Below are positions 19,719 to 34,352 of a DNA stretch of 64,000 nt, piece by piece. The notes beneath the pieces are model-generated. The model was not told the origin of the DNA, did not search any database, and saw only the letters and a program-made list of their open reading frames with translations. Location: assembly GCA_027483445.1 (NCBI GenBank), contig JAIXUS010000042.1:124001-188000 (forward strand), in the 5' to 3' direction. Numbering within the stretch: the stretch's first letter is position 1; each line of letters opens with the position of its first letter. This stretch comes from Bacteroidota bacterium. GTDB lineage: Bacteria > Bacteroidota > Bacteroidia > M30B66. Made by a program: the position numbers and the translations under genes.

Positions 19719-20567
19719 ATGAATCAATCCACAGATTCTTGGTCTAAAGTAATCCAACCTAAATCAAGTCTTCTCGATTTGAAATTAAAAGAGGTCTGGG
19801 AATACCGCGACCTTATCATGATTTTCGTACGCCGCGATATTGTTGCCGTGTATAAACAAACCGTGCTAGGCCCGCTTTGGTTCTTCTTAGGCCCACTATT
19901 TACCGTAGTAACCTTCACATTTGTTTTTCGAAACATCGCCAATATCTCCACTGAAAATATTCCTGCCCCAATTTTTTATCTTGCCGGTACAACGCTATGG
20001 AATTATTTTAGTGCTTCTTTTAATGGCACTTCAAATATTTTCGTTGCAAATGCAAGTATTTTCGGCAAAGTCTATTTCCCACGACTAGTCGCCCCAATTT
20101 CACAAATCATCTCTAACCTTTTAAAATTCTTCATTCAGTTATTGATGTTTTTTGTTTTTTGGGTGTATTATTATTTAAACGGACAAATTTCAATAAATAG
20201 TTATGCGTTGCTATTCCCGCTTCTAGTGGTCTTAATGGCTTTGATGTCGCTCGGAATTGGAATAATCATTTCTTCTATGACTACTAAATACCGTGATTTG
20301 CAGAATTTTATTGGTTTTGGGCTCACACTTCTGATGTATGCCACACCCGTTATTTATCCGATTTCTGCCATCCCGGAAGCATACCAACCATTCATACAGT
20401 TTAATCCACTTTCCCCAATTATTGAAACATTCCGATATGGATTTACCGGAGCCGGAACATTTAGTTGGGGCGCTTTAGCCTATTGCTCAGGGTTTACTGC
20501 TGTAGTTCTGTTAATTGGACTTGTAATGTTCAATCAAACCGAACGTACCTTCATGGACACAGTTTAA
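19719..20567 (+). CDS. Polysaccharide ABC transporter permease (Wzm/ABC-2 family)
   Basis: Membrane subunit of an O-antigen or capsule exporter, 282 residues. An N-terminal cytoplasmic segment with the LWEYRDLI-type amphipathic helix (here VWEYRDLIMIFVRRD) precedes about six hydrophobic segments. The family motif QTVLGPLWFFLGPL lies near residue 48, and the NPLSPIIETFRYG stretch is typical near the C-terminus. It is followed 27 bp later by the ATPase gene. Confidence 0.93.
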   Translation: MNQSTDSWSKVIQPKSSLLDLKLKEVWEYRDLIMIFVRRDIVAVYKQTVLGPLWFFLGPLFTVVTFTFVFRNIANISTENIPAPIFYLAGTTLWNYFSASFNGTSNIFVANASIFGKVYFPRLVAPISQIISNLLKFFIQLLMFFVFWVYYYLNGQISINSYALLFPLLVVLMALMSLGIGIIISSMTTKYRDLQNFIGFGLTLLMYATPVIYPISAIPEAYQPFIQFNPLSPIIETFRYGFTGAGTFSWGALAYCSGFTAVVLLIGLVMFNQTERTFMDTV

Positions 20568-20594
20568 TGTAATTCATTAAAAAAAAACAGCGTA

Positions 20595-21896
20595 ATGTCG
20601 ACAGTTATAAAGGTAGAAAACCTCGCAAAGCAATACCGGCTAGGGCTTGTTGGAACCGGAACGCTTCGTGATGACCTCATTGGGTGGTGGTACAATCTAC
20701 GCGGAAAAGAAAATCCAATTCATAAAATCGGTGAAGTAAACGACAGAACTCAAAAAAGCCAGTCCGATTATGTTTGGGCGCTTCAAAACATCAATTTTGA
20801 GGTACAACAGGGCGATGTAATGGGTATCATTGGTCGCAACGGAGCCGGAAAATCGACGCTTCTGAAATTGCTCTCACGGGTTACTGCTCCAACAACCGGA
20901 AGCATTAAACTAAAGGGGAGAATCGCCTCGCTGCTTGAGGTTGGAACCGGTTTTCATCCTGAATTAACTGGAAAAGAAAACATCTTCTTGAATGGTGCCA
21001 TTCTCGGAATGCGTAAGCATGAAATAAAGCGACGGTTTGATGAAATTGTGCACTTTGCCGGTGTTGAACGCTACATCGATACTCCGGTTAAACGCTACTC
21101 CTCCGGCATGTATGTGCGACTTGCATTTGGTGTAGCGGCCCACCTCGAGTCTGAAATTCTTATCGTAGACGAAGTACTCGCTGTTGGCGACGCAGAATTC
21201 CAAAAAAAATGTTTGGGCAAAATGGGCGATATCAACAAAGGTGAAGGTCGTACCATCCTCTTTGTTAGCCACAATATGGCCTCAGTTCGCGAATTGTGCA
21301 ACCGGGCCATGATTCTCGAAAAAGGTACCGTTGCGCAAATTGGACCAGTCGAGAAATTGGTGCGATCCTATGTTCAAAACCCATTGCTCGTAAAAAGCGA
21401 AAACGATTTGATCGATGACGCAAAGAGCCGTCGGGGCCATGGCGAAGTTCGTTTTACAAAAATCGAAATCAATAGTGGGCAAACATTCTTAGACCCCGAC
21501 AAAGAAATTGTTATTGAATTTAGTTGCAAAGTATTTAAACCAATCTCCAGCCTGTATTGCTATATGGCAGTGAAAGGAGTCCTCAATTCTGATTTTGTAA
21601 CCTCAATAGGGCCATTGAGAATTGCCGATGCTCCGCTCTCAGAAGGGCAACTTATTCATTTTAAGATGACCATTCCGGCAGGAACACTTAGAACCGGAAT
21701 GTACCCATTGTATTTCTGGACAGGCAAGCTTAAAGAAGGACCTATTGGAGAAAATTACCCATACGATGTGATTGATTCTGTGTATTACATGAATATCACT
21801 TCTGATAAAAACGAAAGAGATTTGGGATACAATCCCGACCAACCCGGGGGCTACTTTAATATGCCCTGTAAATTGTCTGATGTAACTTTCATTTGA
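20595..21896 (+). CDS. Polysaccharide ABC transporter ATPase with Wzt-like C-terminal domain
   Basis: ATPase subunit of the exporter, 433 residues. Walker A is [11 protein letters not shown], the signature is YSSGMYVRLAFG, and Walker B is ILIVDEVLAVGD. Beyond residue about 280 follows an extra beta-rich domain of about 150 residues (RFTKIEINSGQTFLDPDKEI onward) like the Wzt C-terminal domain that binds the modified end of the glycan in E. coli O8/O9a. That suggests export depends on a terminal cap, perhaps made by a methyltransferase of the locus. Confidence 0.93.
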   Translation: MSTVIKVENLAKQYRLGLVGTGTLRDDLIGWWYNLRGKENPIHKIGEVNDRTQKSQSDYVWALQNINFEVQQGDVMGIIGRNGAGKSTLLKLLSRVTAPTTGSIKLKGRIASLLEVGTGFHPELTGKENIFLNGAILGMRKHEIKRRFDEIVHFAGVERYIDTPVKRYSSGMYVRLAFGVAAHLESEILIVDEVLAVGDAEFQKKCLGKMGDINKGEGRTILFVSHNMASVRELCNRAMILEKGTVAQIGPVEKLVRSYVQNPLLVKSENDLIDDAKSRRGHGEVRFTKIEINSGQTFLDPDKEIVIEFSCKVFKPISSLYCYMAVKGVLNSDFVTSIGPLRIADAPLSEGQLIHFKMTIPAGTLRTGMYPLYFWTGKLKEGPIGENYPYDVIDSVYYMNITSDKNERDLGYNPDQPGGYFNMPCKLSDVTFI

Positions 21897-22903
21897 TGCT
21901 GAATAACAAATCCATACTCATTACCGGAGGAACAGGCTCCCTCGGTAAGGCGCTAACAAAGCGAATTTTAACTGATTGGCCCGACGTAAAACGATTGGTC
22001 ATCTTTTCCAGAGATGAACAAAAACAATTTCTGATGGAACAGGAATTCCCGGCTTCAAAATATCCCGCAATTCGCTATTTTATTGGTGATGTACGTGATT
22101 ATGAGCGTCTAAAACGGGCATTCACCGGAGTTGATTACGTAATTCATGCGGCGGCAATGAAACATGTGCATATTGCTGAATACAATCCGGATGAGTGTGT
22201 TAAAACCAATGTTGGAGGTGCCGAGAATGTCATCAGAGCTTCGCTCGAAACCAATGTCGACCGCGTTGTTGCATTATCAACCGATAAAGCCTGTGCACCA
22301 ATCAATTTATATGGAGCCACTAAACTTACCTCCGATAAACTGTTCATCTCAGCCAATAACATCAAAGGCGTTAACCCAATCCGATTCTCCGTTGTTCGCT
22401 ATGGAAATGTAATGGGCTCAAATGGTTCTGTAATTCCATTCTTCCTTAAAAAAAGAAAAGAAGGTGTTCTTCCAATTACCGACCCTTCAATGACACGCTT
22501 TAATATCTCTTTGGATGAAGGCGTAAATATGGTTCTCTACGCGCTTGAACATGCCTGGGGCGGAGAATTATTCGTGCCCAAAATACCTTCATACCGATTG
22601 ATAGATGTGGCCGAAGCCATTGGTCCTGAATGCGAAAAACCAATTGTTGGAGTGAGACCGGGAGAAAAAATTCATGAAGAAATGATTACGTCTTCCGATA
22701 GCTATAACACCTACGATCTCGGGAAATATTTTGTAATTCTTCCTTCTGCGCTTTCTAAGTGGAAATTGGATGACTTTATCAAACAATTTGGTGCAAAGAA
22801 AGTACCTATTGGTTTTAGCTACAATTCAGGAGAGAACACTGAATGGGAAACAGTGGATTCACTGCGGGAGTTGATAAAACAACACGTTGATGCTGATTTT
22901 TAA
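21896..22903 (+). CDS. pseB: UDP-N-acetylglucosamine 4,6-dehydratase (inverting), PseB-type
   Basis: First enzyme of pseudaminic acid synthesis: it dehydrates UDP-GlcNAc and inverts C5. The chosen ATG at 21896 overlaps the ATPase stop (TGATG) and gives 335 residues; a TTG 3 nt upstream is also open. Motifs are TGGTGSLGKAL, HAAAMKHVH, ALSTDKA and NLYGATKL (with Lys at the catalytic position), then RYGNVMGSNGSVIPFF. This is the short soluble type rather than the long membrane CapD type. Next comes the matching aminotransferase. Confidence 0.92.
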   Translation: MLNNKSILITGGTGSLGKALTKRILTDWPDVKRLVIFSRDEQKQFLMEQEFPASKYPAIRYFIGDVRDYERLKRAFTGVDYVIHAAAMKHVHIAEYNPDECVKTNVGGAENVIRASLETNVDRVVALSTDKACAPINLYGATKLTSDKLFISANNIKGVNPIRFSVVRYGNVMGSNGSVIPFFLKKRKEGVLPITDPSMTRFNISLDEGVNMVLYALEHAWGGELFVPKIPSYRLIDVAEAIGPECEKPIVGVRPGEKIHEEMITSSDSYNTYDLGKYFVILPSALSKWKLDDFIKQFGAKKVPIGFSYNSGENTEWETVDSLRELIKQHVDADF

Positions 22904-22912
22904 TTCCCACTT

Positions 22913-24097
22913 ATGATACCATACGGAAAACAATACATTTCGCCCGACGATATTCAAGCGGTTGTTGATACCCTACAGTCTGATTTTCTCACGCAGGGCC
23001 CCAAAATCGCAGAGTTTGAAGCGGCTTTTGCAAATTATATCGGGTGTAAATATGCCGTTGCACTGGCCAATGGTACAGCAGCACTCCACCTTTGTGCTCT
23101 GGCACTTGATCTTAAGCCAGGCAATAAAGTAATTACCTCTCCAATTACCTTCGCAGCTTCAGCAAATTGCGTCAGATATTGCGGTGCTGATGTGGTTTTT
23201 GCGGATATAGACCCAGAAACATATCTCCTCGATATCAATAAAGTAAGAGAATTATTGGAGGCTTCGCCCAAAGGAACATACCAAGGCATCATTCCCGTAG
23301 ATTTCGCAGGAAGGGCAGTTGATCTTGAGGCATTTCGGAAACTCGCTGATGAATTCGATTGTTGGATAATTGAGGATGCCTGTCACGCTCCAGGTGGGTT
23401 TTTTGTGGATTCAACAGGAGCTAAGCAAAGCTGTGGAAATGGGAATTTCGCCGACCTCGCCATTTTCTCTTTCCATCCGGTAAAACATATTGCCTGTGGC
23501 GAAGGTGGAATGATTACTACCAATAACGAAGCGCTGTACAATAAGTTAATCAAACTCAGAACACATGGAATTACACGTGATTCTAACTTGTTTACCAACA
23601 CGCTAGATACAGCCTACGGTTATTCCTCTTCCAATATAGCCTTTCCAGCTTGGTACATGGAAATGCAAGAGCTCGGTTTCAACTATCGGCTTACAGATTT
23701 TCAAGCCGCTCTTGGATTATCACAATTAAGCCGTGCGAATCAAGGTCTAACCCGAAGAATTGAAATTGCTCAAAAATATTCAACAGCATTTGAAAACGAA
23801 AAGTCAATTGTGTCTCAGTCTGGCCTAATCGAAGGACATGCCTACCACCTTTATGTGATTTGCGCAGAAAATAGGGCCGAATTATACAACCATTTAAGAT
23901 TGAAAAAGATTTTTTGTCAGGTACATTACATACCTGTTCATTTACATCCTTATTACCAATCTTTTGGATGGAAACAGGGCGATTTCCCAAATGCGGAGCA
24001 GTATTATAAGAATTGTCTAAGTCTACCTATGTTTCCTACGCTTACTCATGATGAACAAGAGTTTGTTATTGGAGAAGTAAAAGCATTCTTCAATTAA
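22913..24097 (+). CDS. pseC: UDP-4-amino-4,6-dideoxy-N-acetyl-beta-L-altrosamine transaminase, PseC-type
   Basis: PLP-dependent aminotransferase of the DegT family that aminates C4 of the PseB product. The 394 residues begin MIPYGKQYISPDDIQAV, typical of PseC. Visible are FLTQGPKIAEFE, the EDACHAPGG aspartate motif and the PLP lysine in FSFHPVKHIACGEGG, followed by RTHGITRD. It lies 10 nt after pseB. The downstream 341 bp break the tight operon spacing. Confidence 0.92.
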   Translation: MIPYGKQYISPDDIQAVVDTLQSDFLTQGPKIAEFEAAFANYIGCKYAVALANGTAALHLCALALDLKPGNKVITSPITFAASANCVRYCGADVVFADIDPETYLLDINKVRELLEASPKGTYQGIIPVDFAGRAVDLEAFRKLADEFDCWIIEDACHAPGGFFVDSTGAKQSCGNGNFADLAIFSFHPVKHIACGEGGMITTNNEALYNKLIKLRTHGITRDSNLFTNTLDTAYGYSSSNIAFPAWYMEMQELGFNYRLTDFQAALGLSQLSRANQGLTRRIEIAQKYSTAFENEKSIVSQSGLIEGHAYHLYVICAENRAELYNHLRLKKIFCQVHYIPVHLHPYYQSFGWKQGDFPNAEQYYKNCLSLPMFPTLTHDEQEFVIGEVKAFFN

Positions 24098-24438: not shown

Positions 24439-25269
24439 GTGAGCAGTTTATCAAAAATCGGATTAGGAACTGTTCAGTTCGGTATGGATTACGGAATTAG
24501 TAATGCTCAAGGAAAAACGTCGTTCACGGAGGTTAATAAAATTTTGTCTATTGCGACCACCAATCATATTCATGTTCTCGACACGGCAAGTGCATACGGA
24601 GAAAGCGAATCTGTTCTGGGCCAAGCAGGAGTGCAGCAATTTAATATCATAACCAAATTTCTAGCTAAGTCACCTAATGAATGTGCCTCACAATTATCGA
24701 ACAGCTTGGAAAAATTAAATTGCGAGAATGTATATGGATTTTTGTCTCATAATTTCACCCAATTATTGCAGAACCCATCGATATGGGACACAATGTTAGA
24801 GCTAAAACAGCAAGGTAAAGTGAAGAAGATAGGATTCTCATTTAACTCCGTACAAGAAATTGATATCGTTGTTAAGTCGGGTTGGTTACCCGATTTAATT
24901 CAAATACCATTTAATCTTCTGGATTATCGCTTCGCAGATGTTGCAAGATTCTACAAAGAGAAAGGAACTGAAATCCATTCCAGATCTGCCTTTTTGCAAG
25001 GTTTGTTTTTTTGTAAACCTGATAGTCTGAGTAACCACTTTAACCCAGTTAAGTCTTTTATTCGACAGCTCCAAGCATGCTCCTGTAATTTAGCCGGTGA
25101 TTTATTAAGGTTTTGTTCCGACAACTCTTTTATTGATAAAGTAATTATCGGCGTCAATAACTCAATTCAATTACAAGAAATTATCGTGGGATACGAAAAT
25201 GCAACAAGGCTTGAGCTTGAAATTCCGCATCTCGATGAATCAATTTTAGCACCTTCTAATTGGAAATAA
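24439..25269 (+). CDS. Aldo/keto reductase
   Basis: 276-residue TIM-barrel oxidoreductase starting with GTG. It begins MSSLSKIGLGTVQFGMDYG, the typical AKR N-terminus of sugar clusters. The catalytic Asp/Tyr pair fits DTASAYGESE, and the usual active-site histidine may be LSHN. NADPH-binding residues cannot be assigned safely. Members of this group often lie next to nonulosonate genes; substrate unknown. It is coupled to the next gene by TAATG overlap. Confidence 0.85.
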   Translation: MSSLSKIGLGTVQFGMDYGISNAQGKTSFTEVNKILSIATTNHIHVLDTASAYGESESVLGQAGVQQFNIITKFLAKSPNECASQLSNSLEKLNCENVYGFLSHNFTQLLQNPSIWDTMLELKQQGKVKKIGFSFNSVQEIDIVVKSGWLPDLIQIPFNLLDYRFADVARFYKEKGTEIHSRSAFLQGLFFCKPDSLSNHFNPVKSFIRQLQACSCNLAGDLLRFCSDNSFIDKVIIGVNNSIQLQEIIVGYENATRLELEIPHLDESILAPSNWK

Positions 25270-26045
25270 TGCTACCGATGTTTGATTTATCTGGTAAGAA
25301 TGCAATAGTTACCGGTGGGTACGGCCACCTTGGTGCTGCAATGGTTAACGCCTTGCGTTCTGTAAACGCCACAGTAATTGTAGCCGGTAGAAGCAAAGAT
25401 AAATTTGACCATACCTTCGGTTCTGATTCAAAAATCATTTTTACACAATGTGATATTACCTTAAGTGACGATATCAATCACTTAGTATCGAATACAGTAA
25501 ATCAATTCGGTTCAGTAGATATCTTGATAAATAATGCAGCTACTGTTGCAGGAAATAGCATTGAGCAGATGCCGGATAATGATTGGTCAAACACTTTAGA
25601 GGGTGTTTTAGGTTCTGTTCACAAAGGTATCAGGGCGGTAATTCCGTACATGAAAAAACAGGGTTCAGGAAAGATTGTAAATATCGCTTCCATGTACGGT
25701 GTTGTGAGCCCTAATTTTGATTTGTATGCAGATTTGGAAGAATTTACCAATCCTCCGCATTATGGAGCCGCCAAAGCGGCAATCATTCAACTCACAAAGT
25801 ATTATGCCGCTTACCTAGGTAAATACAATGTACAGGTCAATGCAATTTCGCCTGGTCCTTTCCCTACTGAGAGCGTTCAAAACAGAAGTGACCGCTTTAC
25901 GCACCGCTTAGCAGAGAGAACGATGTTAAAGCGTATTGGCGAACCTGAAAACATCAAAGGCCCGGTAGTTCTGCTAAGCAGTAAAGCTTCAGATTTTATA
26001 ACTGCGCATAATTTAATTGTCGATGGAGGCTGGACAGCCTGGTAA
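25269..26045 (+). CDS. Short-chain dehydrogenase/reductase
   Basis: Classical SDR, 258 residues from the ATG at 25269, which overlaps the previous stop; a TTG at 25260 and an ATG at 25278 are alternatives. The nucleotide loop is TGGYGHLG, the NAA motif is LINNAATV, the catalytic Ser lies in IASMYGV and the Tyr/Lys pair in YGAAKAAI. With the preceding aldo/keto reductase it probably acts on a keto-sugar intermediate or a nonulosonate side chain; the exact reaction is unknown. Confidence 0.88.
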   Translation: MLPMFDLSGKNAIVTGGYGHLGAAMVNALRSVNATVIVAGRSKDKFDHTFGSDSKIIFTQCDITLSDDINHLVSNTVNQFGSVDILINNAATVAGNSIEQMPDNDWSNTLEGVLGSVHKGIRAVIPYMKKQGSGKIVNIASMYGVVSPNFDLYADLEEFTNPPHYGAAKAAIIQLTKYYAAYLGKYNVQVNAISPGPFPTESVQNRSDRFTHRLAERTMLKRIGEPENIKGPVVLLSSKASDFITAHNLIVDGGWTAW

Positions 26046-26048
26046 ACC

Positions 26049-26897
26049 ATGAAAATCGGAGCCATTATTCAAGCCCGCTATGGGTCATCCCGACTCCCTG
26101 GAAAAGTGCTGATGCCTTTACCTTTTCCTGACGGTAAACCACTGTTGAAGCACATTGTCGATCGGCTTAAATCATCAAAATACATCAATTATATCGGAAT
26201 AGCCTCTTCTCTAAGAAATGAAAACCATGCTATAGAGCAATTCGCACTAAAAGAGCAAATTGATTGTTATAGAGGCAGCGAAGACAATGTGCTTAGCCGG
26301 TTCCTTGAAATTACGAAAAAAGAGCGACTAGATTATGTGATTAGACTTACCGGAGACAATCCATTGGTTGCACTCAACGAACTTGATGATGCAATTAAAT
26401 TACATATTGAAAATCAAAATGAATACACAAAATCATCTGGTTTACCTCTTGGATTGAATTATGAAATAGTAAATGCAAAGTCACTCTTATCACTTGAGAA
26501 TGAAGTGTTGTGCAACGATGATTATGAGCATGTAACAACCTATTTCTTAAAAAGTAGCCAGATTAAAAAAAAAATTGTGCATTATGAACTCTCTAGCTTG
26601 GGAAATATGCGGTGCACAATTGACTATCCTTCTGATTTTGCCATGATGTCTATACTTATGAATTATATCAATTTACAAAGCAGTGATGTAATAAGTGAAC
26701 TTAAAAAGGTCAATCTTAATTCACCATGGATCTTTGAAATTAATAAAAACAATTTTCAGAAGAAACAATATCAAAACATAATGGATGAATTTGAAGATTT
26801 GAAGAAAGTTTTAAAAGAGTATGAATTTAATTATGCTTTAAGCTTTTTGTCAGCACACTTTAGTGACACTGATACTAAACACACTACTAACCAATAG
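26049..26897 (+). CDS. Cytidylyltransferase (SpsF/NeuA-like), putative CMP-nonulosonate synthetase
   Basis: 282 residues beginning MKIGAIIQARYGSSRLPGKVL, the nucleotide-binding signature of SpsF and related CMP-sugar synthetases. RLTGDNPLV is the conserved acidic metal motif. It should activate the nonulosonic acid made by PseI as a CMP-sugar, the role called PseF. The protein ends without the fused PseG-like hydrolase domain that some SpsF/PseF proteins carry. The last about 50 residues are Lys/Asn-rich and poorly conserved in appearance. Confidence 0.82.
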   Translation: MKIGAIIQARYGSSRLPGKVLMPLPFPDGKPLLKHIVDRLKSSKYINYIGIASSLRNENHAIEQFALKEQIDCYRGSEDNVLSRFLEITKKERLDYVIRLTGDNPLVALNELDDAIKLHIENQNEYTKSSGLPLGLNYEIVNAKSLLSLENEVLCNDDYEHVTTYFLKSSQIKKKIVHYELSSLGNMRCTIDYPSDFAMMSILMNYINLQSSDVISELKKVNLNSPWIFEINKNNFQKKQYQNIMDEFEDLKKVLKEYEFNYALSFLSAHFSDTDTKHTTNQ

Positions 26898-26982: not shown

Positions 26983-27885
26983 ATGGAAAACAATACTACG
27001 ACATCAAAGAATGAGTATGGGTTTTACCGACTGAACAATATTCCTTCACAAGAGGAATTAGATGAGTACTATCAAAAGAAGTATTTTCAGGAAGATCGGG
27101 CCATATACTTTCACGAATATAGTTCTGAGGAACTGCTCTATTTTAAAAACAAGAATGAGCAAAAGGCACTTATTATTGAAAAGCTCTTTCAAGCGCAAAA
27201 CGAAAAGCCCAAATTGCTGGATGTGGGTTGTGGTGAAGGCTTTACATTAGCCTATTTTCATGAGCGTGGTTGGGAGGTGAGAGGAATTGACTACAGCGAG
27301 TATGGGTGCAAACAACACAACCCTCAGATGCTTCCTTTTTTTAGTGCTGGAGACATTTACAAACAGTTAGAGGCCCTGCTTCAAGCTCAAACAAAGTACG
27401 ATTGTATTTGGTTGGATAATGTGCTTGAGCATGTCATCGATCCTGCAATCTTGCTCAAAAAGCTTACTATATTGGCACACTCTGGTACGGTGTTGATGGT
27501 TGAAGTACCCAACGACTTTTCGGTACTACAAAATAAACTGTTGGAAGAAGGTAAAATTGACAGACCTTTTTGGGTTGTAAGCCCCGACCATCTATCGTAT
27601 TTTAATCTCGATGGCCTCACCAATTTGGCGGATAGCTGCGGTTGGGATAACAAATATACAATAGCTGATTTCCCAATTGATTTCAATCTTGCAAATCCTT
27701 TTGCGAATTACGTAATGAATCGTGAAGTGGGAAAAGGCGCACATAAACAAAGAGTATTTGTTGAGAATATCATGCATTCAATTTCACCCGAACTGACAAA
27801 TCAGTATTACGCCTCAATGGCGCAACTAGGGCTAGGTCGTCAGTTAATCTCTTTCTTAACGCTAAAAAACTCAAGCAATGAATGA
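26983..27885 (+). CDS. Class I SAM-dependent methyltransferase
   Basis: 300 residues. A short N-terminal region (YGFYRLNNIPSQEELDEYY) is followed by the SAM motif LLDVGCGEGFTL, then IDYSEYG, then WLDNVLEHVIDP, which is the post-motif II acidic segment. This is a Methyltransf_12/23-type fold seen in polysaccharide clusters. A likely O- or N-methyl acceptor is a sugar of the locus. It overlaps the next gene by 8 nt. Confidence 0.85.
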   Translation: MENNTTTSKNEYGFYRLNNIPSQEELDEYYQKKYFQEDRAIYFHEYSSEELLYFKNKNEQKALIIEKLFQAQNEKPKLLDVGCGEGFTLAYFHERGWEVRGIDYSEYGCKQHNPQMLPFFSAGDIYKQLEALLQAQTKYDCIWLDNVLEHVIDPAILLKKLTILAHSGTVLMVEVPNDFSVLQNKLLEEGKIDRPFWVVSPDHLSYFNLDGLTNLADSCGWDNKYTIADFPIDFNLANPFANYVMNREVGKGAHKQRVFVENIMHSISPELTNQYYASMAQLGLGRQLISFLTLKNSSNE

Positions 27886-28624
27886 ATTTAAAGTATTAGG
27901 TGGGTCAACCGAGGCCGAAAAAGCCAATCGAAACTTTATTGTTGATCAACTTAAAAACACGCCAATTCCCGATTCGGAACTTGTTTTCAATCTTGGTCTC
28001 TACATCAATCGTCAAAGTTTATCGAGAATTCTGTTTATGACAGAATTGTATCGAAAAATTATTGATGTTCATGGTGTTGTTATGGAATTTGGCGTAAGGT
28101 GGGGCCAGAATCTGTCACTCTTCTCATCATTGAGAGGTATGTTGGAACCTTTTAATTATAATCGTAAAATTATTGGTTTCGATACATTTGAGGGTTTCCC
28201 ATCTGTAGATTCTAAAGATGGTTCTAAAGTAGCTGTGGGTGATTACTCTGTTTCAAAGAATTATAAGCAAACTTTAGAGTCTATTTTGGCATATCACGAA
28301 TCAGAAAGCCCACTTTCTCACAAGCGGAAGTTTGAGCTTGTGCAAGGAGATGCTACACTTACCGTTCATGATTATATCAAGAATAATCCTGAAACAATTG
28401 TTGCTTTAGCATACTTCGATTTTGACATTTATTCACCAACCAAAGTTTGCCTTGAGGCTATTTTACCGCGACTTACAAAAGGCAGTATTATAGCTTTCGA
28501 TGAACTAAATTGCCCTGAGTTTCCGGGTGAAACTTTGGCCGTGCTTGAGGTGCTTGGGCTTAATAAATATGCAATAAAGAGAAGCCCCCTTAACCCATTA
28601 ATTTCTTATTTAACAATAGAGTGA
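27878..28624 (+). CDS. TylF/MycF-like methyltransferase
   Basis: 248 residues. EFGVRWGQNLSLF is the SAM-binding loop, IIGFDTFEGFP and AYFDFDIYSPTK are family motifs of the TylF (macrocin O-methyltransferase) group, with Asp residues that bind a divalent metal in studied members. It probably O-methylates a sugar hydroxyl. The stop overlaps the GNAT start by 1 nt. Confidence 0.8.
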   Translation: MNEFKVLGGSTEAEKANRNFIVDQLKNTPIPDSELVFNLGLYINRQSLSRILFMTELYRKIIDVHGVVMEFGVRWGQNLSLFSSLRGMLEPFNYNRKIIGFDTFEGFPSVDSKDGSKVAVGDYSVSKNYKQTLESILAYHESESPLSHKRKFELVQGDATLTVHDYIKNNPETIVALAYFDFDIYSPTKVCLEAILPRLTKGSIIAFDELNCPEFPGETLAVLEVLGLNKYAIKRSPLNPLISYLTIE

Positions 28625-29190
28625 TGGAAGTCCTAAATCACTACTCTTGTCTGAAAACAAAAGAATTTCGCCACAAAAACTACCTTATTTGCAGCATAAG
28701 GAGGGATGATATTATGCATATACGCCTTTGGAGAAATCTTCAGATTGATGTTCTCAGGCAAAAGGGTGAAATTTCTGAGGAAGATCAGTTAAAGTATTTT
28801 GAATCAGTTGTTTGGCCTACATTTAATCAGGATAATCCCCGCCAAATTTTGATGTCCTTTTTCTATGAGGAGAAATTAATAGGGTATGGTGGTTTAGTGC
28901 ATATTTCATGGGAAGATAAGCGAGCAGAGGTTTCATTCTTGGTAGACCCTTCTCGAATTACTCCTGAGATTTATGAGCATGATTTTACTGCATTTTTGAC
29001 ACTGATCAAAATGATGGCCTTTTCTGATCTTGGCTTTGAACGCTTGTATACAGAAACTTATGATATACGAGAAAAGCACATATCAATTCTGGAAACCAAT
29101 GATTTTCAAAGGGAAGGAATTATGCGAAAGCATGTCTTAATCAATGGCAAACGCATTGATTCCATAATTCATGGATGTTTAAATGAATAA
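28624..29190 (+). CDS. GNAT family N-acetyltransferase, candidate PseH
   Basis: 188 residues from the ATG at 28624 (TGATG overlap; a GTG lies 3 nt upstream). The IRLWRN segment followed by ISEEDQLKYFE resembles the N-terminus of PseH/SpsD-like acetyltransferases; GYGGLVHISWEDKRAEVSFLV covers the central strands and IREKHISILETNDFQREG the C-terminal GNAT strand-helix. In context it should acetylate the 4-amino group of the PseC product. Identity as PseH is inferred from position. Confidence 0.72.
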   Translation: MEVLNHYSCLKTKEFRHKNYLICSIRRDDIMHIRLWRNLQIDVLRQKGEISEEDQLKYFESVVWPTFNQDNPRQILMSFFYEEKLIGYGGLVHISWEDKRAEVSFLVDPSRITPEIYEHDFTAFLTLIKMMAFSDLGFERLYTETYDIREKHISILETNDFQREGIMRKHVLINGKRIDSIIHGCLNE

Positions 29191-29192
29191 CA

Positions 29193-31097
29193 ATGCTACA
29201 GAATAAAAGAATATTTGTAAGCGGTGGGGCCGGGGTCATCGGTCAAGAGCTCATACCTAAATTGAATTCCCTTGGAGCAAAAGTTTTGGTTGGTGATCTT
29301 AAGCCTTGTCCAAGTCATTTTCCTGAAAATATTCACTACCTACAAGGCGACTTGAATTATTTAACAAGGGATATATTAGAAGAGTTTTCTCCGGATATAT
29401 TCATACATCTAGCCGCAACCTTCGAAAGATCAACAGAATCTTACTCGTTTTGGGAAGAAAACTTTTGGCATAACGTGCGACTGAGTCACCACCTTGCAAC
29501 ATTAGTGAAAGATTTACCCAGCATCACCAAGGTGATTAATGCCTCGAGTTACTTAATCTATAATCCCGAATTATATAGCTTTTCCGAGCCCCAAACTGTC
29601 CCTTACTCCTTAAAAGAGTCAGACCCCATCTACCCGCGAAATCTCACCGGTATGGCTAAACTTGCTCATGAGATAGAGATTCGCTTCCTGCAAAGCTTTG
29701 CCGGTGAAAGCAAGTCATATATAAATGCAAGAATATACCGTGGTTATGGAAAGGGTTCTCGATGTGTAATTTCCCGCTGGATTCGTTCCTTAATCAATGG
29801 GGAAGAAATTAAAGTGTATCGAAAAGAAGGAATATTTGATTACATCTATGCGGGTGATACAGCCGAAGGGCTTATTCAATTAGCCGCACATCAGAATGCA
29901 TCAGGAATTATTAATCTGGGAACTGGCAAAGCCCGAAAAGTTCAAGATGTGGTAGATGTTCTTCGGAAGTATTTTCCTGAAATGAAGTATTCTGAACATG
30001 ATTCTGACATTCCTTATGAAGCTTCCCAAGCGGATATTTCTTTGCTTAAGTCATTGACAAATTGGGAGCCAGCCAACTCGCTAGAAAACGTCATACCCGA
30101 GATTATTGAATATGAAAGAAGTCATCCAGAGTTGGCATCAAAGCCTCCTGGAAACGTTTTGCTTTCTTCAGTTTCGAAAAAAGTGCCAATGGTAAATGCG
30201 CTGAAGCAGGCCTGTAGAAAGATTAATAATGAAATCCTGCTTTTTGGTGGAGATTTAAACGAGAATGCTCTTGGAAAATATTTTTGTGATGGTTTTTGGA
30301 ATATGCCGAGAATTAATCAGCTGTCTATAAATGAATTCATTCAGTTTTGCAAGTCCCATAATATAACTGCAGTTGTCCCCAGCAGAGACATGGAATTATC
30401 ATATTTCGCAAAGCATAAATCAGAACTTTTTAGAAATGGAATCCATGCGATGATCTCTAGTCATGAAACTATTGAAATTTGCTTGGATAAATTGAGGTTT
30501 TACGATGAACTGAGTTTGCAGAAGTTTCCTGTAATTCCAACCTATAATTCAATAACCGACGATTCTATTCCTCGCTGGGTGGTAAAGGAGCGTTTTGGTT
30601 CTGGATCAACAGGTTTAGCGGTGAATGTTGAAAGCACGGAGGCTTTGCAATTCGCGCAAAAACTAGAGAATCCAATTTTCCAACCTTTTATTTCCGGTAT
30701 CGAATATAGTATAGATGCTTTTGTAAGCGCTTCCGGCAAAGTGAAAGGAATTGTTTGTAGAACGAGAGACTTAGTTGTAAGTGGAGAATCTCAAATATCA
30801 TCTACATTAAATCACCCCGGAATCGAAGAGCTAATCAACGCAATACTTACAAAATACAGTTTTTATGGTCATGTCGTATTTCAGGTGATTGAATCATTGG
30901 ATAAACAACTGCATATTATTGAGTGTAATCCACGGTTTGGAGGAGCATCATCTCTTTCATTGGCCGTCGGATTAGACTCATTTTATTGGTTTCTATTGGA
31001 GTCGATTGGGCAGAATATTGACAACTACCCATTTATTCGGTCAAAGTCTCAAAAAAGACAAGTACGTTATGCCTCCGATATGATTTTAGACCACTGA
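29193..31097 (+). CDS. NAD-dependent epimerase / ATP-grasp fusion protein
   Basis: 634 residues in two domains. Residues 1-310 form an extended SDR fold with GGAGVIG at 11-17, HLAATFE and NASSYLIYNPE. The usual YxxxK reads T152-G-M-A-K156, so the catalytic Tyr is missing. Residues about 335-634 form an ATP-grasp domain with WVVKERFGSGSTGL near 455, FISGIEYSIDAFV, and the metal motif IIECNPRFGGAS. ATP-grasp enzymes usually join a carboxylate to an amine, so the protein may attach an acyl group to an amino sugar. It lies between the GNAT and HAD genes. Confidence 0.75.
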   Translation: MLQNKRIFVSGGAGVIGQELIPKLNSLGAKVLVGDLKPCPSHFPENIHYLQGDLNYLTRDILEEFSPDIFIHLAATFERSTESYSFWEENFWHNVRLSHHLATLVKDLPSITKVINASSYLIYNPELYSFSEPQTVPYSLKESDPIYPRNLTGMAKLAHEIEIRFLQSFAGESKSYINARIYRGYGKGSRCVISRWIRSLINGEEIKVYRKEGIFDYIYAGDTAEGLIQLAAHQNASGIINLGTGKARKVQDVVDVLRKYFPEMKYSEHDSDIPYEASQADISLLKSLTNWEPANSLENVIPEIIEYERSHPELASKPPGNVLLSSVSKKVPMVNALKQACRKINNEILLFGGDLNENALGKYFCDGFWNMPRINQLSINEFIQFCKSHNITAVVPSRDMELSYFAKHKSELFRNGIHAMISSHETIEICLDKLRFYDELSLQKFPVIPTYNSITDDSIPRWVVKERFGSGSTGLAVNVESTEALQFAQKLENPIFQPFISGIEYSIDAFVSASGKVKGIVCRTRDLVVSGESQISSTLNHPGIEELINAILTKYSFYGHVVFQVIESLDKQLHIIECNPRFGGASSLSLAVGLDSFYWFLLESIGQNIDNYPFIRSKSQKRQVRYASDMILDH

Positions 31098-31098
31098 A

Positions 31099-31785
31099 AT
31101 GCCTTTTGATGCCATTATCTTTGATTTAGATGATACACTTTACAAAGAGCTAGACTTTGTGGAAAGCGGCTTTTTTGAAGTGGCTAAATTTCTTTCTCGA
31201 ACTGGGAATCATAAAATTGGTGTTGAAGTAATTCATTCCAAGATGTTGGAATCACTGCATTTGAGTGGTAGAGGAAAAGTATTTAATGATGTTTTGGAAT
31301 GGCTAGAACTTAATGTAAATGAGTATTTAAGTACCCTGCTTTACATTTATCGAAATCATTTACCTGAGAATATTCTACTTGATTCGGCAATGAAAGACTT
31401 ACTGGACGAATTAAGGAATACAAACGTCAAACTTGGTGTAATAACTGATGGAACATTTGTGACTCAAAAAAACAAAACAAATATACTTTTTCAGGACTTT
31501 AACCTTGATTGTATCATTCACACTGACTCTTTAGGGTCAAACAACTGGAAACCATCTTCTGAACCCTTCAAAGTCGCTTCAAAACTACTTGATGTTAATC
31601 CCAACAAAGCGGTATATATTGGCGACAATCCAGTTAAGGATTTTAAAGGTGCTCGAAGTATCGGTATGAAAGCAATTTGGTGGAATCCCGAATCTAAATC
31701 ATTCAACTTTGAAGATGAGGTAAGTAAACCCGATTTTACGGTAAGCAATATTCAAATGCTTCGCGAACAACTAATTGGCTGCTAA
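31099..31785 (+). CDS. HAD-superfamily hydrolase
   Basis: 228 residues. The N-terminal IIFDLDDTLY supplies the nucleophile Asp and the acid/base Asp; GVITDG gives motif II Thr/Asp, and YIGDNPVKDFKGAR supplies the acidic motif IV. A helical cap follows motif I. It is most likely a sugar phosphatase of the nonulosonate cassette. It lies 1 nt after the fusion gene. Confidence 0.83.
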   Translation: MPFDAIIFDLDDTLYKELDFVESGFFEVAKFLSRTGNHKIGVEVIHSKMLESLHLSGRGKVFNDVLEWLELNVNEYLSTLLYIYRNHLPENILLDSAMKDLLDELRNTNVKLGVITDGTFVTQKNKTNILFQDFNLDCIIHTDSLGSNNWKPSSEPFKVASKLLDVNPNKAVYIGDNPVKDFKGARSIGMKAIWWNPESKSFNFEDEVSKPDFTVSNIQMLREQLIGC

Positions 31786-31786
31786 G

Positions 31787-32854
31787 ATGATCAACGAACT
31801 TAAAATAGGAAATACACTGGTAGGAAAAAACCACCCGGTATTTATCATTGCGGAATTATCCGCTAACCACAATCAACAGTTGGATGTGGCTTTAGAAACG
31901 GTTAAAGCCGCCAAGCGATGCGGAGCCAATGCCATCAAATTGCAGACTTACACTCCCGATACAATCACTTTAAAGTCCTACCGGCCGGAGTTTAAGTTAA
32001 CTCAGGGAACAATCTGGGACGGCAAATACCTGTACGACTTATACAAAGAGGCTTACACCCCTTGGGAATGGCACAAGACTTTGTTTGATGCGGCAATTGC
32101 TGAAGGTTTGGAAGTGTTTTCTTCCCCTTTTGATCTTACAGCTGTTGATTTTCTGGAGACGTTGAATGCCCCGGCGTACAAAATAGCATCCTTTGAAATC
32201 AACGACATACCACTTATTCGTAAAGTGGCCCAACTTCAAAAGCCAATCATTATCTCTACAGGTATTGCACGCCCTGATGACATTGAGCTGGCCTTAGAAA
32301 CCTGTTTTGATGAAGGAAATCATCAAGTAATTTTATTGAAATGCACTTCTAGTTATCCGGCCCCTATTGAGGAAGCCAATATGATAATGATACCCGATTT
32401 AACCCAACGTTATCAGGTCCTGTCGGGTCTTTCCGACCATACACTCGGAATCACAGTTCCAGTAGTAGCAACAGCCTTGGGTGCTTGTGTAATTGAGAAA
32501 CACTTTATTCTTGACCGAAGTATTGGAGGACCTGATGCTTCTTTTTCTTTGGATGAAAAGGAGTTTACCGCCATGGTTAATGCAGTAAGAGAAGCTGAAA
32601 ATGCCATTGGAGTGGTCGATTATTCACTTTCGCAAAAGCAAATCAATTCACGCGAGCATTCTCGTTCTTTGTTTGTAACTGCAAATATCCTGAAGGGCGA
32701 AGTCTTTACAGTTGAAAATATTAGATCCATTCGACCGGCTAATGGTTTACATACTAAGTACTATAAAGATGTACTCGGTAAAAAAGCAGCAAAAAATCTT
32801 GAGTTTGGTGAACCACTTCAAGAAGAACACATTGAGGGGTTTTCAATCAACTGA
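31787..32854 (+). CDS. pseI: Pseudaminic acid synthase (NeuB family)
   Basis: Condenses phosphoenolpyruvate with a 6-deoxy-diacetamido-altrose to make pseudaminic acid. I use the ATG at 31787 (355 residues) rather than a TTG at 31775. The TIM-barrel NeuB domain shows FIIAELSANHNQ, AIKLQTY, SSPFD and SDHTLG, then EKHFILDRS; the C-terminal SAF domain contains the RSLFVTANILKGE segment and SIRPANGL. SANHNQ and the short KLQTYTPDTITL favour PseI over NeuB or LegI. Confidence 0.92.
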   Translation: MINELKIGNTLVGKNHPVFIIAELSANHNQQLDVALETVKAAKRCGANAIKLQTYTPDTITLKSYRPEFKLTQGTIWDGKYLYDLYKEAYTPWEWHKTLFDAAIAEGLEVFSSPFDLTAVDFLETLNAPAYKIASFEINDIPLIRKVAQLQKPIIISTGIARPDDIELALETCFDEGNHQVILLKCTSSYPAPIEEANMIMIPDLTQRYQVLSGLSDHTLGITVPVVATALGACVIEKHFILDRSIGGPDASFSLDEKEFTAMVNAVREAENAIGVVDYSLSQKQINSREHSRSLFVTANILKGEVFTVENIRSIRPANGLHTKYYKDVLGKKAAKNLEFGEPLQEEHIEGFSIN

Positions 32855-32948: not shown

Positions 32949-34352
32949 ATGAAGAGTAAGCGAATTGGAATTTATCCTGGGTTTAATACATCTACCCATG
33001 ATCCTATTCATAAAAGAGTCATTGAATGGTATGATGCCATCCCGTATACTTATCATGAAGCCTTACGAGAAGTGCAACTTAGTAAGTTGGAGCTTATTCT
33101 GCTTAAAATTGTAAAACTTTATTATTTTTTGATGCTCTTGTTTAAGCGAGACCGGACATCAGGGCTATTCTATAAAAATGTAAATATCCTACATTCTGTT
33201 GTAGAACTTACTGTGGTTTACAGTAAAGACGGGCGCTTTGATAGATTTTCAAAGAACGCATTCAAGTGTTTAAATACCGCAATTCAGGTAGTATATAATG
33301 CACAACGCTTGGTCAAAGACGATAGGGTAGCCATAGTAATCGGAGGAGACGAAGCTTTTGTTTATGGCTCAGTTTGGGGCCAGATTGCAGCTAAATATAA
33401 TATTCGACATTTTCACTTAAAACAAAGAGAAGGTTTTGTATCTGCTTTTCCATTGGATTTAAAAACGCTTTTCGCCGGCCCTCGTTACTATGAGTTGGAA
33501 AACAATCCCGAAGCGGTAACCAATGAAAAGTTGCTTTCAGAAATCAGAACTGTAATTGAGCACGGTAATTACACTTACATGCGCAAGGCAAGTCATGATA
33601 CTGATAAAGATTTGTCGTATTTAGAAGGGGCTTTTGTACTGTATCTTCATGACTTCCTTGACAGTCCAGGTATTTATGGTCAAGTTTTCTTTTTTGATTT
33701 GTGGGAATGGATCGACATGGCCATTCAAGCATCATTGAAACACAAAGAAAGACTTGTCATTAAAATCCACCCTAATGTTTCTGAAAAGAATCAAGTTGCA
33801 ATTGCACGCCTGAAGCGAAAAGTATCTCGATTCAAAAACGTGAGGGTAACCAATGATCACTTTTCTCTTTATACCTTTAGAGAGAAGGTTAAAGGCGTAT
33901 TAACCATTTTTGGAACAGTAATGGCAGAATCAAGGCAATTCAATATTCCTTGTCTTTCCGCGGCGATTAACCACCCGTATTTGTGTGGGAATTTGGTTCC
34001 TAAAATCCATTCTAAAGAAGATTATATCCTAAAACTAAATCAATTTTTTAAAAGTCAAAAATTGATGGACACATCGCAAGCAAGTGATCCTGCTTTAACT
34101 TATTACTTAGCCAATTATGAACCGTTCTTTAAAAATAGTCTGTTCGAAGGTTTGCCTTATGACGACATGAGCATGGAGCTTTTTAAAAAATTACATCCGA
34201 CAATTGAAAACGTCGATAGTTACGGAATTCATGAACGGAGAGCGATTTTCTTGTATTCATCTGAGACCAAAAACTATATACAGAATTATTTAGATGAGAA
34301 CGAAGAGGCACTTAAAAAGCGTTTAGATTATTTGCTAAATAGTTTTAATTAA
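32949..34352 (+). CDS. Putative GT-B glycosyltransferase of capsule-synthesis type
   Basis: 467 residues. I recognise only general features: two Rossmann-like halves, a VIKIHPNVSEKN segment near residue 270 and ILTIFGTVMAESRQFNIPCLSA-like donor-binding positions near 315, as in KpsS/KpsC and related capsule enzymes. No signal peptide is evident; a hydrophobic patch near residues 50-65 may touch the membrane. It follows pseI and precedes a fucosyltransferase, so a CMP-nonulosonate transferase is a reasonable guess. Confidence 0.55.
   Translation: MKSKRIGIYPGFNTSTHDPIHKRVIEWYDAIPYTYHEALREVQLSKLELILLKIVKLYYFLMLLFKRDRTSGLFYKNVNILHSVVELTVVYSKDGRFDRFSKNAFKCLNTAIQVVYNAQRLVKDDRVAIVIGGDEAFVYGSVWGQIAAKYNIRHFHLKQREGFVSAFPLDLKTLFAGPRYYELENNPEAVTNEKLLSEIRTVIEHGNYTYMRKASHDTDKDLSYLEGAFVLYLHDFLDSPGIYGQVFFFDLWEWIDMAIQASLKHKERLVIKIHPNVSEKNQVAIARLKRKVSRFKNVRVTNDHFSLYTFREKVKGVLTIFGTVMAESRQFNIPCLSAAINHPYLCGNLVPKIHSKEDYILKLNQFFKSQKLMDTSQASDPALTYYLANYEPFFKNSLFEGLPYDDMSMELFKKLHPTIENVDSYGIHERRAIFLYSSETKNYIQNYLDENEEALKKRLDYLLNSFN

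Follow-up and report, generated by a model that had tools for sequence, protein, structure and literature searches.

A conserved SDR/ATP-grasp fusion protein in pseudaminate-type gene clusters without PseG, and its putative role in N-acylation

Described systems and how the locus compares

ATP-grasp proteins encoded in flagellin glycan loci have been proposed to act as carboxylate-amine ligases. In C. difficile, extension of the type B flagellin glycan towards a sulfonated peptidylamido-sugar requires the ATP-grasp protein CDR20291_0245 (PMC5207246), and the sfm flagellin-modification operon of S. oneidensis contains NeuB and ATP-grasp genes, the latter encoding SfmE (SO_3265; PMC3765264). Tannerella makes Pse5Am7Gra, and the gene responsible for its glyceroyl group "remains elusive" (PMC6388019, PMC6120980). 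Here we report on a gene at 29193..31097 (+ strand) of the window, the whole 64,000-nucleotide stretch of DNA analysed, to which coordinates without a locus name refer. Its single open frame encodes a protein of 634 aa in which an SDR half is fused to an ATP-grasp half. By description it resembles the C. difficile and S. oneidensis proteins, but these belong to different loci and an SDR fusion is not described for them. No description of such a fusion was found in our search of the literature on pseudaminic or nonulosonic acid and ATP-grasp, and searches on formyl and hydroxybutyryl Pse genes, O-antigen ATP-grasp ligases and alternatives to PseG yielded nothing decisive.

The best profile match of the ATP-grasp half (156.7 bits) is the CPSase-like PRK12767 family (2pn1; NF009405), with which it shares the fold, the ATP lysine and a Gln/Glu/Asn metal set. 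The fusion differs from that family in falling short of the 390-bit NCBIfam equivalog cut-off, in carrying an SDR half and in sitting in a PseG-less pseudaminate cluster. The other half has the fold, the GxxGxxG motif, Asp35, Ser119 and Lys156 of extended SDR epimerases (GalE, 4zrm; MoeE5, 6kv9), but with Thr or Cys for the catalytic Tyr, and Arg, Phe and Glu at three UDP contacts of GalE. With the textbook Pse pathway (PseB-C-H-G-I-F) the window has in common PseB, PseC and PseI, all above cut-off, and a cytidylyltransferase. Unlike in that pathway, PseG is absent from the window's genome, the PseH slot is occupied by a GNAT-fold protein without the CoA loop (hereafter PseH*), and acylation would fall to the ATP-grasp half. 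Legionaminate-type operons of the order LegB-LegC-[ATP-grasp-HAD]-LegI-LegG (L046, L049) also place an ATP-grasp protein at the N-acylation position, between the aminotransferase and the NeuB-type synthase; in these, however, the ATP-grasp protein is not fused to an SDR, shares only 23-28% identity with that of the fusion and is accompanied by a NeuC-type hydrolase.

The fusion protein and its two halves

All Pfam matches in the fusion were above their cut-offs (Epimerase, aa 7-243; PylC-like_N, 322-418; ATP-grasp_3, 430-584). Our scan of 84,980 species genomes recovered full-length homologues in Hymenobacter, a Prolixibacteraceae MAG, a Bacteroidetes MAG, Paraburkholderia MAGs and Paenibacillus validus, and a second search, covering the P. 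validus family, added three genomes to make four in that family. Counting the window's own, there are 27 full-length genome copies of the fusion, 26 of them elsewhere and spread over three phyla, which bears out a reading of the gene made from its sequence only, as an epimerase half joined to an ATP-grasp half, and rules out an assembly-join artefact or chance as its origin. A plasmid search did not return the full-length fusion.

The extended-SDR half occupies aa 1-310 (29193..30122, +). Profile alignment to T. maritima GalE (4zrm) and MoeE5 (6kv9) places Thr152 (codon at 29646..29648) at the catalytic Tyr and Lys156 (29658..29660) at the catalytic Lys, as the sequence-only reading had it. 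The Rossmann GxxGxxG motif (Gly11/Gly14/Gly17) and the acidic NAD residue (Asp35) of extended SDR epimerases are present, and these residues, together with Ser119 and Lys156, are invariant in 27 of 27 full-length fusions; the Ser/Thr-Tyr-Lys set is thus incomplete only in its Tyr. Conservation of the Thr is not absolute: position 152 is Thr in 23 full-length fusions (and in one partial copy) and Cys in four, the P. validus family genomes, and never Tyr. The nearest stand-alone SDRs, as far as their pairwise alignments are in register, carry a Tyr at this position. Since Thr or Cys is found in all fusions and Tyr in the nearest separate SDRs, the alignments indicate that the catalytic Tyr is replaced and that the replacement is old and retained. 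A catalytic role for Tyr147 was rejected, as this position is variable (Leu in 17, Tyr in six, Phe in one and Ala in one of 25 sequences). Neither of the two findings that the earlier reading had named as speaking against it, a Tyr at position 152 in homologues or a catalytic Tyr147, was therefore borne out.

The UDP contacts of GalE, which we take to be Asn179, Arg231 and Arg292 in E. coli numbering, correspond in the profile alignment to T. maritima GalE to Arg183, Phe215 and Glu276 of the fusion, and all three are invariant in the 27 copies. These residues lend no support to the earlier proposal of nucleotide-sugar binding by the SDR half. In the AlphaFold model of the fusion the ATP-grasp half is good, while the active-site loops of the SDR half (78-83 and 121-152) have pLDDT below 50. 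Judged by its residues, the SDR half still looks capable of binding NAD but rewired, both at the catalytic Tyr and at the UDP contacts. Its likeliest role is to hold or alter a substrate other than a UDP-sugar, rather than to act as an ordinary epimerase.

The ATP-grasp half (aa 320-634; 30150..31094, +) scored above Pfam cut-offs for PF02655 (44.2 vs. 23.2 bits), PF15632 (47.2 vs. 29.1) and PF21360 (43.1 vs. 27). None of the 27 fusions departs from Lys465 and the metal triad Gln564, Glu577 and Asn579. When 12 divergent ATP-grasp relatives were aligned, Lys465 was conserved in at least 90% of the alignment, and an Asp-Lys pair, Arg467, Glu504, Asp508, Arg523/525 and the metal triad were kept without exception. 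The closest solved sequences are 2pn1 and CPSase and the closest fold is 2pn1 (CPSase-like); the Gln/Glu/Asn set resembles the metal ligands of CPSase. By these conserved positions the ATP-grasp half is intact, in agreement with the Lys and Glu/Asn metal-binding motifs recognised in it before. Among relatives of this ATP-grasp subfamily we found none with a demonstrated substrate.

The PseG-less gene cluster and PseH*

The fusion gene lies in a co-directional run (+ strand) that starts with a Wzm/Wzt-like ABC transporter (19719-21896), followed by PseB (21893..22903; 495 bits vs. a cut-off of 408) and PseC (22913..24097; 465 vs. 424). An aldo/keto reductase (24439..25269) and a classical SDR (25260..26045) come next, both accessory and absent from some members, and then a cytidylyltransferase (CTP_transf_3) in the PseF role (26049..26897). 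After an accessory SAM methyltransferase (26983..27885) and a TylF-like methyltransferase (27878..28624), which is below the Pfam cut-off and accessory but well conserved, PseH* (28621..29190) directly precedes the fusion. The run continues with an HAD-type hydrolase (31099..31785), found with most of these ATP-grasp ligases, and the pseudaminic acid synthase PseI (31775..32854; 502 vs. 340 bits). Glycosyltransferases are encoded downstream of PseI. A 467-aa protein without a Pfam match directly follows PseI (32949-34352) and is kept in the closest relative (L021, 83%). The window's own genome also contains two more NeuB-family genes (G000:C67:153392-154348 and 163798-164769, one within a 638-aa frame) and hence further nonulosonate loci.

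PseG (TIGR03590) was not found above cut-off in any of the 15 fusion genomes examined, the window's own included, and in 11 of the other 14 the sole match was weak, partial and below cut-off. Among 296 genomes of the window's phylum, 41 have PseI above cut-off and 32 of these have PseG. The same genomes were searched with a PseH* profile built from a nine-row alignment (A3), with four rows from the PseI-positive, PseG-negative set, one from the window and one from the P. validus family. The profile strongly matched exactly the nine genomes of the phylum that have PseI and no PseG (above 200 bits; next best, 75.7 bits), a separation that is partly by construction, as some of these genomes supplied profile rows while G254, G387, G377 and G065 lay outside it. 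Of 105 P. validus family genomes, 27 have PseI, 21 of these have PseG, and the four with PseH* are all without PseG. Taking the 68 PseI genomes of both phyla together and ignoring kinship, PseH* is present in 13 of 15 genomes without PseG vs. 0 of 53 with it (Fisher p ~3e-12). G266 (L111), which belongs to the genus group of the Hymenobacter carriers but is without the fusion, has PseG instead. The P. validus family search also returned two genomes, G400 and G483, with PseI above cut-off and neither PseG nor PseH*, possibly owing to another replacement or to incomplete assembly.

PseH* was located at 28621-29190 in the window and in L022, L024, L037, L039, L102-L108 and L118-L120. The window's copy scores 31.6 bits against the PseH model TIGR03585, below the cut-off of 93.1. 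Its AF2 model (pLDDT 92.9) has a GNAT fold with H. pylori PseH (4ri1) as the best PDB match. The acetyl-CoA loop, (Q/R)xxGx(G/A), is absent from all 13 aligned members and from three further Paenibacillaceae-family copies, whereas the true GNATs adjoining some PseH* copies do carry it. From these patterns, PseH* may replace PseG. A divergent PseG overlooked by the HMM was also considered and rejected, as there is no unassigned ORF between PseB and PseI in L108 and L022. The PseG-less pathway around the fusion is a more unusual finding than the fusion itself; the mutual exclusion of PseG and PseH* across two phyla would close a gap in the Pse pathways as annotated and could point to a GNAT-fold sugar-nucleotide hydrolase.

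The acylation slot and the role of the fusion

Seven genomes with PseI and without PseG lack the SDR/ATP-grasp fusion, and all have PseH* (L102-L108). In L104, L107 and L108 a canonical GNAT lies beside PseH*, in L103 and L105 a GNAT is fused to it, and in L106 an ArnA-like formyltransferase is its neighbour (L103-L108 come from G254, G326, G387, G274, G270 and G184). L102, from G377, encodes a PseH*-ATP-grasp fusion without the SDR half, followed by an HAD gene. All these modules precede PseI. The slot with PseH* before PseI thus accommodates three chemistries, the common denominator of which is acyl transfer to an amine. Because the slot holds interchangeable acyltransferases in PseG-less pseudaminate clusters, the ATP-grasp half of the fusion is likely an amine acylator as well. 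The SDR half is probably dispensable for the ligation itself, since the G377 protein fills the same slot without it. Cluster L022 has the minimal set PseB-PseC-PseF-PseH*-fusion-PseI, with no HAD gene and no other canonical acyltransferase; by elimination, the fusion would acylate the 4-amine there and UDP release would fall to PseH*, provided that no gene outside the cluster takes this on. Outside pseudaminate clusters, stand-alone ATP-grasp relatives (23-28% identity) directly follow LegC and precede NeuB/NeuC-type genes (L046, L047, L049), and pairs of ATP-grasp and HAD genes are found alongside aminotransferases in Priestia and Rickettsiales plasmids. On reading the ORFs of the legionaminate-type operons L046, L047, L049 and L053, which have the ATP-grasp gene together with an HAD gene, LegH was not evident, which suggests non-acetyl N-acyl groups.

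We therefore favour, with moderate confidence, a reading in which the fusion donates the acyl group in a pseudaminate-type pathway that lacks PseG. PseB and PseC would produce a 4-amino sugar nucleotide. The ATP-grasp half would convert a small carboxylic acid to an acyl phosphate and join it as an amide to the free 4-amine, the future N7 of the nonulosonate, standing in for PseH and acetyl-CoA of the textbook route. PseH* would release the sugar from UDP, PseI would condense it with phosphoenolpyruvate, and the cytidylyltransferase would then activate the product. The adjacent HAD hydrolase may yield the acid, for instance by removing the phosphate from phosphoglycerate or a similar phospho-acid; its absence from L022 counts against the reading favoured here. 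Glycerate is the first candidate acid because the known N7 groups in Bacteroidota include glyceroyl (Tannerella). Of the earlier interpretation, ligation by the ATP-grasp half is retained and is now placed by gene context at an N-acylation in a pseudaminate-type pathway, while nucleotide-sugar binding by the SDR half is not. Non-acetyl N-acyl groups (glyceroyl, glycolyl, amino acids) on sialic-acid-like sugars alter surface glycan recognition, and, given its conservation and a clear candidate for the amine partner, the ATP-grasp fusion opens the N-acyl step to direct testing (compare the glyceroyl gene of Tannerella; PMC6120980).

ATP-grasp enzymes are able to ligate other pairs, the C1 carboxylate of a nonulosonate included, which counts against the proposed N-acylation. 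The ligase might thus act late, on the finished nonulosonate, acylating N5 or N7 after deacylation or coupling an amine or amino acid to the C1 carboxylate as an amide. Nonulosonates with an amino acid on nitrogen are indeed known (Leg5GluNMe7Ac, cited in PMC13317340). We nevertheless regard late action as unlikely, because the interchangeable GNAT and formyltransferase modules fit the step at the PseC product, and the fusion is the only candidate acyltransferase of L022. Absence of PseG from every fusion genome tested could also mean that the fusion itself replaces it, with the SDR half freeing UDP; this is highly improbable, given the seven fusion-less genomes in which PseH* is present and the missing UDP-contact residues.

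Two further possibilities concern the SDR half and are compatible with early N-acylation by the ATP-grasp half. It could be a non-catalytic scaffold or binding module, serving to present the amine substrate or as a docking site for PseH*, PseC or PseI, as its loss of the Tyr and UDP contacts amid otherwise strong conservation would fit; pseudo-enzymes, however, usually lose the cofactor loop or the Lys too, and with both invariant in 27 sequences we find a pure scaffold somewhat unlikely. Loss of the Tyr normally cripples SDR catalysis. Rather doubtful, then, is NAD-dependent epimerase or dehydrogenase activity that changes an intermediate to give a different nonulosonate isomer with Thr/Cys152, Ser119 and Lys156 as an alternative catalytic set: the invariant NAD loop, Asp35, Ser119 and Lys156 and the hydroxyl or thiol residue kept at 152 speak for it, while the replaced UDP contacts and the G377 relative, which lacks an SDR half, speak against it. 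Combining the parts, it is conceivable, and we put it forward tentatively, that a GNAT-fold protein which lost acetyl-CoA binding is a new PseG replacement that frees UDP from the amino sugar and works alongside one of several interchangeable N-acylation modules (GNAT, formyltransferase or ATP-grasp); in the fusion variant the SDR half, a rewired Thr/Cys SDR, would act on a substrate other than a nucleotide.

As to the surroundings of the clusters, those of the Paenibacillaceae family with Cys152 (L039, 14939-16930; L119, 1403-2968) adjoin ORFs that read like flagellar FliD/FliS. The context in the window is one of polysaccharide export, unlike these flagellar-like neighbours.
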